Source of the DNA: Winogradskyella marina
GTDB taxonomy: Bacteria; Bacteroidota; Bacteroidia; Flavobacteriales; Flavobacteriaceae
NCBI RefSeq assembly: GCF_015645385.1
Contig: NZ_JADOET010000001.1
Span: forward strand, 496,001-560,000
DNA length: 64,000 bases
Direction of reading: 5' to 3'
A model generated the notes under the pieces. The model was not told the DNA's origin. It searched no databases and was given only the letters and a program-made list of their open reading frames with translations. Both the position numbers and the translations under genes were made by a program. This document shows, in pieces, positions 10,162 through 37,907 of the stretch. Each line of letters opens with the position of its first letter. Position 1 is the first letter of the stretch.

Positions 10162-10509
10162 TTAATCTTTAGATGATTTTACAATACTAACTAATAATCG
10201 TAACATTTCCTGCGATTTAGGTTTAAATTTATCAAATTCTTCTTTATTTAAATAATTTGTAGCATACAGTAAATCTATCCAATAATCTGTTTCATTGGCT
10301 TCTTTTAGGCTAATTGACATTTTGTTTATAAAGTCTGGTTTACTTTGTGCAAACTCCGCTTCTCTTACGTTAGCACCGATGGATGTACCGGATTTTAGTA
10401 GTTGCCTCGACATTACATACTCCTTTTTATTGTAAGCTAATTCTTTATAAACGTTAACAATATCAACTGCAAAATCGAAGCTTTTTTCTTTTATAATATT
10501 TGGTTTCAA
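10162..10509 (-). CDS. Four-helix-bundle protein (23S rRNA intervening-sequence protein family)
   Basis: 115 residues with the family signature SRQLLKSGTSIGANVREAE (residues 35-53) and ISLKEANETDYWIDLLY. The protein is almost wholly helical. Members of this family occur inside 23S rRNA intervening sequences and as free genes in many Bacteroidota; their function is unknown. Here it is inserted between mvaD and the kinase gene of a mevalonate operon with a 35-bp gap to the kinase, and no rRNA is nearby. Confidence 0.8.
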   Translation of the reverse strand: MKPNIIKEKSFDFAVDIVNVYKELAYNKKEYVMSRQLLKSGTSIGANVREAEFAQSKPDFINKMSISLKEANETDYWIDLLYATNYLNKEEFDKFKPKSQEMLRLLVSIVKSSKD

Positions 10510-10568: not shown

Positions 10569-11711
10569 TTAATTTTTAATTGGTGTAGCTCCTTTTCCAA
10601 TTTGATCGCAAATAAAATGCCCGTTTTGGCAATAGTTAGCTAATTCATTCTTAATGAATTGTAAAATAGATGCTTTTTCATTTTCAGGATATAATACATG
10701 AACATTAGCTCCGGCATCGAGTGTAAAACACACTTTTGAACCAGTTTTAAGTCTATAAGTCCAAATTTTATTGATGATTTCTAAGGTGTTCGGCTTCATT
10801 AAAATAAAATAAGGCATACTCGTCATCATCATAGCATGAAGGGTTAAAGCTTCACTTTCTACAATTTTTATAAATTCATTTAAATCACCTGAAGCCAAAA
10901 TAGTTTTCAGCTTAGCCAAATTATCATGTGCTTGCGAAAAACGTTCTGTTGCAAACGGATGACCATACATTAATTGATGACCAACGGTACTACTCACTTG
11001 TTTTTCACCTTTATCGACTAACAAAATAGTGTCTTGATAATTATTGAAGTTTGAATGTACTTCGCCTTCAAATTTTACTCCGTATAAATCTGAACTTTCA
11101 GGAATACTCTCGTTTTGTCCCCAAACAACAAGCTCACCTTCTATGCTTCTGCAGGCGCTTCCTGAGCCTAAACGTGCTAAGAATGAGGCTTTTTGATTGA
11201 AGTAAGACTTCTCGACTGCGCTCGAAGCGACATTGTCTGTCAGTATATATTCAATACTCATTAAACACAAAGCAATAGCACTCATACCAGAAGCTGAAGA
11301 CGCAATACCAGAACTGTGAGGAAATGTGTTTGAAGTCTCAATTTTGAAATGATAATCCTTCAAGAATGGCATATATTTTTCAATGCGCTCAAAAAAGGTT
11401 TGAATTTTTGGTTCGAAGGCTTCATTTTTTTTACCTTCAAAATAAACATCGAAACTAAAACCTGTTGTCATCTTGAGCCTGTCGACTTCGCTCAAGACAA
11501 GCTGCGTCGAAAGATTCTTCTTTGTATACGTGACTTCTGTAATGGTTTTACAATCTGAAAGTGTGAAACTAATAGACGGATTTTCTGGAATTTGATGTTC
11601 CTTTTTCCCCCAATATTTCACCAATGCAATATTACTTGGCGACTCCCATTTTACGGAACCATTTTCTATATTAGAGTTGTATGATTTAAGGATAAAATCT
11701 TGTTCAGTCAT
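10569..11711 (-). CDS. mvaD: Diphosphomevalonate decarboxylase with two in-frame palindromic inserts
   Basis: 380 residues. Family motifs are SNIALVKYWGKK (27-37), NPSISFTL, FPHSSGIASSASGMSAIAL (130-148), LARLGSGSACRS (178-189) and TLDAGANVHVLYP. It converts mevalonate diphosphate to isopentenyl diphosphate in the cytoplasm. Two stretches read from dispersed palindromic DNA repeats interrupt otherwise family-like sequence: about residues 66-83 (TQLVLSEVDRLKMTTG) and about 157-170 (LTDNVASSAVEKSY). Both keep the frame, so the gene may still be active, with surface loops lengthened. It is the first gene of the operon, with a TATCTTTG element 17 bases upstream. Confidence 0.88.
   Translation of the reverse strand: MTEQDFILKSYNSNIENGSVKWESPSNIALVKYWGKKEHQIPENPSISFTLSDCKTITEVTYTKKNLSTQLVLSEVDRLKMTTGFSFDVYFEGKKNEAFEPKIQTFFERIEKYMPFLKDYHFKIETSNTFPHSSGIASSASGMSAIALCLMSIEYILTDNVASSAVEKSYFNQKASFLARLGSGSACRSIEGELVVWGQNESIPESSDLYGVKFEGEVHSNFNNYQDTILLVDKGEKQVSSTVGHQLMYGHPFATERFSQAHDNLAKLKTILASGDLNEFIKIVESEALTLHAMMMTSMPYFILMKPNTLEIINKIWTYRLKTGSKVCFTLDAGANVHVLYPENEKASILQFIKNELANYCQNGHFICDQIGKGATPIKN
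11207..11235. repeat. Palindromic repeat inside mvaD (copy 2)
   Basis: CTTCTCGACTGCGCTCGAAG followed by CGACATT: arms CTTC/GAAG and TCGA/TCGA pair around a short core. It is close to the intergenic repeats at 23644 and 37873 (TTCGACTG, GCTCA, then TGACA). It encodes in-frame residues of mvaD. Confidence 0.65.
11468..11512. repeat. Palindromic repeat inside mvaD (copy 1)
   Basis: CTTGAGC (11472-11478) pairs with GCTCAAG (11490-11496) around a GTCGAC palindrome, followed by a second TCGA-containing segment. The same kind of element occurs between genes in many Bacteroidota genomes. Here it is inside the mvaD coding frame. Confidence 0.65.
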
Positions 11712-23580: not shown

Positions 23581-23643
23581 ACTTCTTAAACTGGTTGCGT
23601 TTTTCTTTTTTAGTGAATTTTAAACTATTAATACACTAAGAGT

Positions 23644-23670
23644 AGGTTTCGACTGAGCTCAACCTGACAT
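23644..23670. repeat. Dispersed palindromic repeat (TTCGACTG type)
   Basis: AGGTT and AACCT pair around TTCGACTGAGCTCA, followed by GACAT. Same family as the elements at 37873 and inside mvaD. Confidence 0.55.
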
Positions 23671-27897: not shown

Positions 27898-29793
27898 TTA
27901 TTTTTCAATTTTTAAAATAAACGACTCCAATGGTTTGATATCAATTCTAACTTCAGCCTTACCATTTTCTACTTTTAAAGTGGACGAATATGATTTATAC
28001 AATTGGTCTTTTACCTTGTATTCTCCATCTTCAAGTTTCAGTTTTTCGACTAAATCCTCTGGTAACTGCAACTCGAAACCATAGGTGTTTTCTGCATTGA
28101 AATTTGAAATAATTATCAGTTTTTCATCGTCACTCCAACGAACAAAAGACAATACCTTATCATTGTACCATTCCGTATGTTGATGATTATAATGCTGAAT
28201 ATCTTGATAGTCGCCCATTAATGCCGAACTATTAATCGTGAAATTTAAAAGGCGTTTGTAAAAATCACGAAGGTCTTTTTCTGCTTCTGTGGATTGACCA
28301 CCGTCAAACTTTTTATCGTTTACCCAACGCACTTGACTTGGCACACTTCCGTAATCGAAAATTGACGTCCGCGTTGGATCTCCAAAACCTAAATCTTCTG
28401 CACCTGGCTCTCCGAATTCTTGTCCGAAATAAATCATGGTTGGTGCTGTTGATGATGTTGCCGAAACCACCATAGCAGGTTTTCCTTTAGCTGCACTTCC
28501 TGCAAAATCTGGACTCGCAATACGTTGTTCATCATGGTTCTCTAAAAAGTGAAGCATGTGATGTTCAATATCACCTAAATCAGCTAAAATTGGTGGAATG
28601 TTGTCTGTACTTCCATGACCTTGCATGACGTGTTTTAAGGTGTCATATAACTGTACTTTGTCATACAGATAGTCCATTTTTCCTCTTTTGATATAATCTC
28701 TATATAAACTCGGATTGTAAACCTCAGCTAATAAAAACGCCTCTGGATTTTCCATTTTCACATGCGAATTCATATAACTCCAAAACTCAACAGGTACCAT
28801 TTCTGCCATATCATAACGGAACCCATCGACGCCTTTTTCGGTCCAGTACAAGGCAATATCTTTAAATTTCACCCAAGAGCTTGGAACGGTTTTATCTTTC
28901 CAAAACTCATAATGTTTCTTATAATCTTCGTTCTCAAAACCGTTTGGCAATTCATCAAAATCTTTTCTACCCTCTGGTGAAACACCATAATTCACTTTAA
29001 CAGTTTCATACCAATCATTAATATCGGGTTGCGATGCTCTTGAACCATTTCCTGTCCATTTTGCTGGAATTTCTTCAAACTTACTATCTGCCATAGGGTG
29101 TTGTTCTCCTCCTAAAGGCTGATAACCATGTTTCCATTCAGGAACTACAAAAGCCTCTCCTGGATTGTAATAGAAATTATTATTAACGTCGTAGGTTTTT
29201 GTTTTATCATCTTCAGCTCCAAAATCTGACGTACCTTCAGGGTTGGTTAAACTTTGATAATTTCGGGCAACGTGATTTGGAACGATATCAATAATCACTT
29301 TTAATCCGGCTTTATGCGAACGCTCAATTAACGCTTCAAATTCTTGTAATCGATTCTCGACATTTACAGCTAAATCTGGATTTACGTTATAATAATCCTT
29401 AACCGCGTATGGTGAACCAGCCCGACCTTTTACGATGTCTGGATCATCGTTTGAAATCCCAAATTCGGTATAATCTGTAATGACATCGTGATGTGGCACT
29501 CCTGTATACCAAATATGCGTCACACCTAAATCCTTGATTTCGTTTAAGGCTTTATCCGTAAAATCGTTAAATTTTCCAACTCCATTTTCTTCCAGAGTTC
29601 CCCAAGGTTTATTAGTGGTATTCGTATTTCCGAATAAACGTGTAAAGACTTGATAAACGACTTCCTTTTTCTTCATGTTTTGTTTTATTTCTTCACTTCG
29701 AATGTGCTCAGTGACCGTTTCATTCGATTCGTTTTTGCAAGATAATATAGTAAATGTTACTAATGCAATTATGAGTATTTTATAGTTTTTCAT
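27898..29793 (-). CDS. GH13 alpha-amylase-type lipoprotein
   Basis: 631 residues from MKNYKILIIALVTFTILSC, a lipoprotein signal; the upstream in-frame Met at 29826 would overlap a palindromic repeat. GH13 regions: LKVIIDIVPNHVARNY, KGVDGFRYDMAEMVPVEFW (nucleophile Asp in RYD), FLLAEVYNP (Glu) and HFLENHDEQRI (Asp). The catalytic core begins near KKEVVYQVFTRLFG. It likely cuts maltodextrins in the periplasm. It is 61 bp downstream of the GH31 gene. Confidence 0.88.
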   Translation of the reverse strand: MKNYKILIIALVTFTILSCKNESNETVTEHIRSEEIKQNMKKKEVVYQVFTRLFGNTNTTNKPWGTLEENGVGKFNDFTDKALNEIKDLGVTHIWYTGVPHHDVITDYTEFGISNDDPDIVKGRAGSPYAVKDYYNVNPDLAVNVENRLQEFEALIERSHKAGLKVIIDIVPNHVARNYQSLTNPEGTSDFGAEDDKTKTYDVNNNFYYNPGEAFVVPEWKHGYQPLGGEQHPMADSKFEEIPAKWTGNGSRASQPDINDWYETVKVNYGVSPEGRKDFDELPNGFENEDYKKHYEFWKDKTVPSSWVKFKDIALYWTEKGVDGFRYDMAEMVPVEFWSYMNSHVKMENPEAFLLAEVYNPSLYRDYIKRGKMDYLYDKVQLYDTLKHVMQGHGSTDNIPPILADLGDIEHHMLHFLENHDEQRIASPDFAGSAAKGKPAMVVSATSSTAPTMIYFGQEFGEPGAEDLGFGDPTRTSIFDYGSVPSQVRWVNDKKFDGGQSTEAEKDLRDFYKRLLNFTINSSALMGDYQDIQHYNHQHTEWYNDKVLSFVRWSDDEKLIIISNFNAENTYGFELQLPEDLVEKLKLEDGEYKVKDQLYKSYSSTLKVENGKAEVRIDIKPLESFILKIEK

Positions 29794-37872: not shown

Positions 37873-37898
37873 GACATTTCGACTGCGCTCAATGTGAC
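37873..37898. repeat. Dispersed palindromic repeat (TTCGACTGCGCTCAA type)
   Basis: ACATT and AATGT pair around TTCGACTGCGCTCA, then GACA. Lies in the 148-bp gap between pgmB and the GH65 gene. Confidence 0.6.
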
Positions 37899-37907
37899 AA
37901 ATTGTTT

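Follow-up and report, generated by a model that had tools for sequence, protein, structure and literature searches.

The stretch of DNA analysed here (64 kb, referred to as the window) carries on its reverse strand mvaD (10569–11711), the gene for the 380-aa diphosphomevalonate decarboxylase MvaD and the host of both palindromic elements described below. The product matches TIGR01240 with an E value of 4e-46 and 157 bits, under the NCBIfam cut-off of 171, and its best sequence matches are decarboxylase crystal structures. Decarboxylases are also the best fold matches of its AlphaFold model (mean pLDDT 82.7, pTM 0.85), with 2hk2 (S. aureus MDD, TMt 0.84) as the top Foldseek match. With the inserts set aside, mvaD and its counterpart in the relative L033 differ by a dN of 0.045 and a dS of 1.04, the latter near saturation, and the resulting dN/dS of ~0.04 indicates that the enzyme is probably working. 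Judged from this comparison, MvaD remains under purifying selection and presumably functional with both inserts. Between mvaD and a neighbouring gene that resembles mevalonate kinase (61 bits, the cut-off being 163) lies a gene for a four helix bundle protein (10162–10509; TIGR02436, 106.5 bits), which a motif search placed at 9 of 109 relatives' mvaD loci, duplicates included.

The initial annotation had proposed two palindromic elements within the reading frame of mvaD. Both are present and the frame of the ORF is intact, with positions close to those proposed but requiring adjustment. The element at site B occupies 11205–11232 on the reverse strand, with its TGTC tag first on the coding strand, and encodes the peptide NVASSAVEKS at residues ~160–169; it retains 4 of 5 stem pairs. 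Site A corresponds to residues ~65–82 and consists of an outer element on the forward strand, split into a tag-side half with the TGTC tag (11466–11478) and a far half (11506–11518), between which 27 nt (11479–11505, not assigned to a strand) stand in place of the 3-nt centre. These 27 nt are themselves REP-like and contain a second core. The palindrome CTTGAGC/GCTCAAG reported for site A is there in letters, but it pairs an arm of the outer element with an arm of the inner one, and the view of site A as a single palindrome was dropped in favour of a nested reading.

Each insert had been said to add roughly 14–18 residues. This holds for site A, where 15 residues are added relative to most of 47 other MvaD sequences; most of these lack the segment, and neither insert is ordinary conserved MvaD sequence. 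At site B, the loop spans 23 aa in the window's MvaD and exactly 18 aa in 36 of 61 mvaD loops without a recognised REP (the rest measure 19–33 aa), so that the element adds ~5 residues, not 14. In the MvaD model, site A lies between strands 46–64 and 86–91 and takes the form of a pair of short helices, residues 71–80 averaging a pLDDT of 59, while site B forms the end of the loop after helix 140–157 and the start of helix 165–183.

Copies were scored with a matrix built solely from the 81 copies of this genome that lie outside long ORFs, and the threshold of 12.8 bits is the 99th percentile of a codon-shuffled null (n=330, null maximum 16.3). The site B element scores 35.2 bits and site A gives a match of 19.3 bits at 11476–11502. 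Two intergenic copies on the reverse strand, at 23643–23669 (35.5 bits) and 37873–37899 (40.2 bits; its core matches the pattern exactly), have no open frame of more than 60 codons over them, and the resemblance that had been noted between these two and the mvaD elements is one of family. With up to 3 mismatches, the pattern TTCGACTGCGCTCAA occurs 6 times in the window against 0.77 expected, a count reached in 0 of 100 shuffles. A weak copy, below threshold at 9.4 bits, lies at 29692–29718. Three other REP-like strings, allowing up to 7 mismatches, were not found in the window, and a search of the window for inverted repeats reported neither mvaD element because their stems are short or bulged.

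The mvaD repeat is a 28-bp, TGTC-tagged, REP-like hairpin that reads, tag first, TGTC A NN YY GAGCGCAGTCGA RR NN T. Allowing 2 mismatches at most, a search of the 3.98-Mb assembly (78 contigs) found 96 copies of its core TTCGACTGCGCTCAA and 3 of the reversed control. The TGTC/CGTC tag is evident among the 81 copies that do not lie in an ORF of at least 120 aa, its four columns holding T in 58, G in 58, T in 71 and C in 57. For the 78 distinct copies used in the stem test, Watson-Crick pairing over the five nested stem pairs amounts to 0.785 of cells (shuffles: mean 0.442, maximum 0.523, n=1000), and stem pairs make up 4 of the 5 column pairs that rank highest in mutual information. The stem thus comprises 5 covarying pairs followed by the asymmetric GAGCGCAGTCGA core. 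Twelve inverted pairs, counted by eye and with cores starting 30–47 bp apart, account for 24 of the 96 copies. With up to 1 mismatch, at least one copy was found in 34 of 37 same-genus genomes, this genome included (range 0–41; 36 here), and the reversed control gave one match in total across the 37.

The repeat was also sought inside other coding regions, and in-frame copies were found in further core genes of this genome. Within ORFs of at least 120 aa, 15 of the 96 copies are in frame, in 13 genes, and the coding copies together retain 54 of 75 stem pairs; poor matches are the copies at C11:341125 and C43:26557 (2/5 stem pairs each) and C71:37983 (0/5). Family searches named the carriers as DNA polymerase I (PolA), methionyl-tRNA synthetase, topoisomerase (TopB), E1 dehydrogenase, BshC and a glycosyl transferase, as well as leucine-tRNA ligase (LeuS) and methionine synthase (MetH). 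From the look of their sequences, other carriers are presumably a polysaccharide deacetylase, an RND efflux protein, a GHMP kinase and a membrane glycosyltransferase; a Pfam search of the latter two gave no match. In E1, an inverted pair of repeats is translated in full.

Relatives of mvaD were collected from 60 genomes, of which 48 gave a match (own genome included), and from named genomes, which contributed the best 80 of 587 confirmed loci; the resulting 128 sequences comprise 110 distinct ones. Over these 110 genes the matrix gives 31 matches, two of them the window's own: 5 in loop A, 26 in loop B and 0 elsewhere. Five weaker matches (10.8–12.3 bits) likewise lie at site B. When site B was classed by REP pattern in 101 genes, nine distant rows being left out, the loop matched a pattern in 40 of them, whereas windows taken as controls from other parts of these genes did so in 3 of 393 cases. 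The five patterns, which are spread across genera and represent four families with the first also reversed, account for 16, 12, 5, 5 and 2 loops, and none was recognised in the remaining 61, among which some of the longer loops may be relics. Of the 12 type-II loops, 9 are 19 aa long, one residue above an empty loop, which suggests that the repeat replaced the loop instead of lengthening it, or that the repeat was itself trimmed. Within the REP-filled loop at site B, L039 and its close relatives L085 and L086 differ by 7 extra residues (RKFSEAK).

On an mvaD tree built without the insert columns, which is weakly supported with 14 of 98 inner branches starred, filled and empty site B loops are interspersed; gains and losses taken together, as the tree does not separate them, at least 20 changes are needed when the matrix defines the state, 29 when any pattern counts and 33 when the types are kept apart. 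REPs at site B also shift in position by a few codons and vary in orientation among relatives. Site A requires 4 changes, with a remnant in L032/L040 counted in: a REP oriented like the window's outer element is found there in L043, L044, L079 and L093, and a trace of one in L032/L040. The initial annotation had likened such in-frame palindromes to the RPE of Rickettsia and proposed that they are tolerated in loops, and relatives show exactly such a pattern. As for the flanks of mvaD in relatives (L061–L078 and the window being left out of this control), the matrix matches 7 times in 221 kb of coding and 3 times in 47 kb of non-coding sequence; of the 7 coding matches, 4 lie at roughly the same position of a single flavoprotein-like gene and the other 3 immediately precede a UbiA-like start. 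REP peptides lie at about one place ~1.3–1.4 kb upstream of the mvaD start in four genomes (L049, L110, L131 and L158), in a gene that we take to be flavoprotein-like.

LeuS, E1, PolA, TopB and MetH were examined across the genus, and as they were chosen for carrying the repeat in this genome, they are not a random sample of genes. Orthologue matches were obtained in 37 of 37 same-genus genomes for LeuS, E1, PolA and TopB, some TopB matches being weak and to another topoisomerase or partial, and in 27 of 37 for MetH. The best loci were aligned (LeuS 30, E1 30, PolA 30, TopB 29, MetH 26), with one distant TopB locus and two split MetH loci left out. At 12.8 bits or more, 47 of 56 matches fall in one loop per gene, these loops making up 10,644 of the 375,783 nt; without the 6 loop matches from our own genome, the count is 41 of 50. 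By gene, the matches in the loop and elsewhere number 8 and 1 for LeuS, 7 and 0 for E1, 7 and 7 for PolA, 11 and 0 for TopB (with 1 outside the loop at 11.8 bits), and 14 and 1 for MetH; 6 of the 7 non-loop matches in PolA share a second linker site. For each of the five genes there are species whose loop is short and free of REPs, and in LeuS, E1, PolA and MetH different REP types occupy one loop in different species. TopB (all 11 matches) and LeuS (all 9) show a single orientation and frame, and some of the recurrence may therefore be due to inheritance. The CGTC-tag form occurs in the LeuS loops of L229, L234 and L239. A TGTN target at the insertion point is hinted at by LeuS; it did not show up in TopB or MetH and is therefore not claimed. 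The open frames of LeuS (L212–L240) range from ~950 to more than 1200 codons, many matches ending near residue 656. Other palindromes were seen in the same E1 loop (L282, L283, L284 and L286; for example, CTTCCCTTCGGGAAGG in L282 and L283), and another, CCCGAAAGCTTTCGGG, in the MetH loop of L385.

Across the six gene sets, the 87 matches are distributed by reading frame as 47 (VTLSAVERS type), 28 (STAL type), 6, 5, 1 and 0. Three consensus variants were checked: each puts a stop at the end of the frame with no match, and only the TCGAGC variant leaves open the frame that has a single match. Of the 5 matches in the fifth frame, one may be due to chance, that in L378, which scores 13.6 bits and lies outside the loop. 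The frame bias may reflect avoidance of stops, of Cys and of the Arg-rich reading. As a single DNA word gives several different peptides, the DNA would be what spreads.

The nested layout of site A recurs in PolA of this genome, where the insert is also 27 nt, and these two are the only cases in the own-genome stretches scanned (267,736 bases). A scan of the 37 genomes for the compound layout gave 6 places, against 0 in the control. Besides mvaD of this genome, three PolA genes carry it (those of this genome, G001 and G027), and the other two places lie in open frames, 571 and 259 codons long, of which the one in G035 is a 2-mismatch match. All 6 lie in open frames of at least 250 codons, two of these frames being cut off or without a name. 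In PolA, a plain element in L330 and compounds in L327 and L328 share common flanks, and L099 and L136 have a similar compound look at mvaD site B. From these arrangements we infer that the compound arose by insertion of one REP at a fixed point of another. A separate family of compound repeats is not favoured, given only 6 places in 37 genomes.

In-frame REPs inside genes are already in print (PMC3733652, PMC2229807 and PMC6006769, as far as the portions available of these papers extend), and it is with these systems that the mvaD repeats were compared. In the available portion of PMC3733652, RPE-4 and RPE-6 of Rickettsia are classed as CGTC REPs, many repeats having TGTC as their tag, and by this partial account the CGTC REPs are the kind closest to ours. 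The likenesses to the REPs described in that portion are the CGTC/TGTC tag, a hairpin with compensatory stem changes, many copies, inverted dimers and copies inside genes, with DNA polymerase I and tRNA synthetases listed among the carriers (PMC3733652). The CGTC REPs are described there as being without a linked transposase, and in our genome no copy of the repeat lies beside the three Y1_Tnp genes, Y1 being the class looked at. On the other hand, the CGTC REPs of the same text have a stem of 8–9 bp with a 4–5 nt loop, unlike our 5 covarying pairs and asymmetric core, and a short unpaired tail that is mostly CCA, unlike our post-stem columns; moreover, recB, in two species of Xanthomonas, is the one gene noted there as occupied at about the same site, whereas here the same loop is occupied across many species (PMC3733652).

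With the RPE of Rickettsia our repeats share in-frame insertion into conserved protein genes (PMC3733652 and PMC2229807, in part), but the unit is 28 bp here and 105–146 bp there, a figure that the portion seen of PMC2229807 does not give for RPE-4/6 specifically. Unlike the RPE of these partial accounts, several REP types share one loop in different species. The host also differs in not being Rickettsia, its closest named relatives among the matches listed being Winogradskyella, the genus to which it is taken to belong. The G. forsetii that appears in the CGTC REP literature is, we take it, Gramella forsetii. CGTC REPs are known in Bacteroidetes, G. forsetii being named in the portion available (PMC3733652). 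The GTAG REPs and REPINs associated with RAYT, as partly covered in PMC6006769, resemble our repeats in forming short hairpins whose foot carries a tetranucleotide and in occurring as inverted pairs, and in-frame insertions within tnpAREP genes are described there for GTAG REPs. They differ in that the tag here is TGTC, not GT[AG]G, and that no RAYT adjoins the repeat in our genome. Within the titles and opening lines of abstracts listed from the open-access literature (PMC), no description of recurrent multi-family colonisation of a loop was found, and a search with the letters of the repeat returned only papers unrelated by title. In-frame palindromes are of a known kind, as in the Rickettsia RPE and CGTC REPs, while their recurrent multi-family colonisation of loops looks new.

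Movement of the REPs by a Y1 transposase of the host, of the RAYT/IS200 type, was considered, as the portions available of PMC8266576 and PMC6006769 indicate that such enzymes may move REPs in general and three Y1_Tnp matches exist in our genome. One of these is fused in frame to HemF (L210; G000:C22:60971–61669 and beyond): the coproporphyrinogen III oxidase HemF part scores 447 bits and the IS200-like Y1_Tnp part 21.8 or 26.1 bits, the Pfam cut-off being 23. The fusion is matched in 15 of the 37 same-genus genomes, own included, and could itself be the mover. However, no TGTC REP is found near any of the three genes, the best matrix scores there being -6.3, 0.0 and -0.7. Furthermore, Y1_Tnp was not detected in 18 of the 37 genomes, among them G016 (27 copies), G017 (27) and G020 (38), where the weaker matches of G029 and G033 were counted as Y1 present and more divergent Y1 proteins may have escaped detection. 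Genomes with and without Y1 do not differ in copy number (any Y1, P 0.72; fusion, P 0.22; 37 genomes). A linked Y1 transposase as mover is thus not supported, and movement by a Y1 enzyme of the host, the fusion included, seems unlikely to us. One stand-alone Y1_Tnp gene (L208; G000:C4:98662–99006) has its own, different palindrome, GCTCCGCTGGAGC, beside it in two or more copies.

Taken together, the segments are very probably passenger hairpin repeats of the CGTC/TGTC REP kind that lie in frame, are kept in tolerant loops, and whose loops are repeatedly re-colonised. The repeat would multiply as DNA, the peptide being a by-product, and copies within genes would persist only if they leave the frame open and fall in a tolerant loop or linker of the protein, so that the same loops are filled repeatedly, in different species by different REP families and sometimes by a REP within a REP. 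The mobility of the repeat is suggested by copy number, loop turnover and nesting, and the inserts may be close to neutral.

Chance resemblance or ordinary loop variation could be invoked because loops without a REP also vary in length, yet all 31 mvaD matches are confined to two loops, and 26 score at least 17.0 bits, above the null maximum; this and the excess of REP patterns in site B loops over the control windows contradict this reading, which we regard as having practically no chance of being correct. Recruitment of the peptides, by which the loops would be selected for regulation or assembly and only happen to be REP-derived, fits the finding that many species have the same loop occupied and the predominance of two frames (75 of the 87 matches); it is nevertheless highly improbable, as REP type, frame and orientation at mvaD site B and in MetH differ by species and so yield unrelated peptides, and other species have a short loop.

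Another alternative is a single old insertion per loop, subsequently overwritten by recombination between REPs, with losses. The compound elements at site A, in PolA and in L099 and L136, the LeuS inserts, which mostly begin at the FN-V codon, and the uniform orientation in LeuS and TopB would all be accommodated by such a history, but the interspersion of filled and empty loops on the mvaD tree and the shifting positions and differing orientations at site B argue against it, and we consider it possible but doubtful. Overwriting by recombination may also operate alongside fresh insertion. More speculatively, core-enzyme loops of the Flavobacteriaceae may serve as re-used landing sites, at which a resident REP attracts or templates the next through insertion at its centre or exchange between families, by a mechanism acting in trans or free of Y1; we put this forward tentatively, as a minority possibility.

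Whereas the cited papers list intragenic palindromes genome by genome, here one loop is traced across ~100 sequences and several REP families, providing a natural record of how protein tolerance filters selfish DNA. Two questions are thereby made testable, namely how REPs move without a linked transposase and whether one REP is a preferred insertion site for another. If the landing-site reading is true, essential proteins across the family would go on exchanging the peptides in their loops, with non-coding palindromes as the source.
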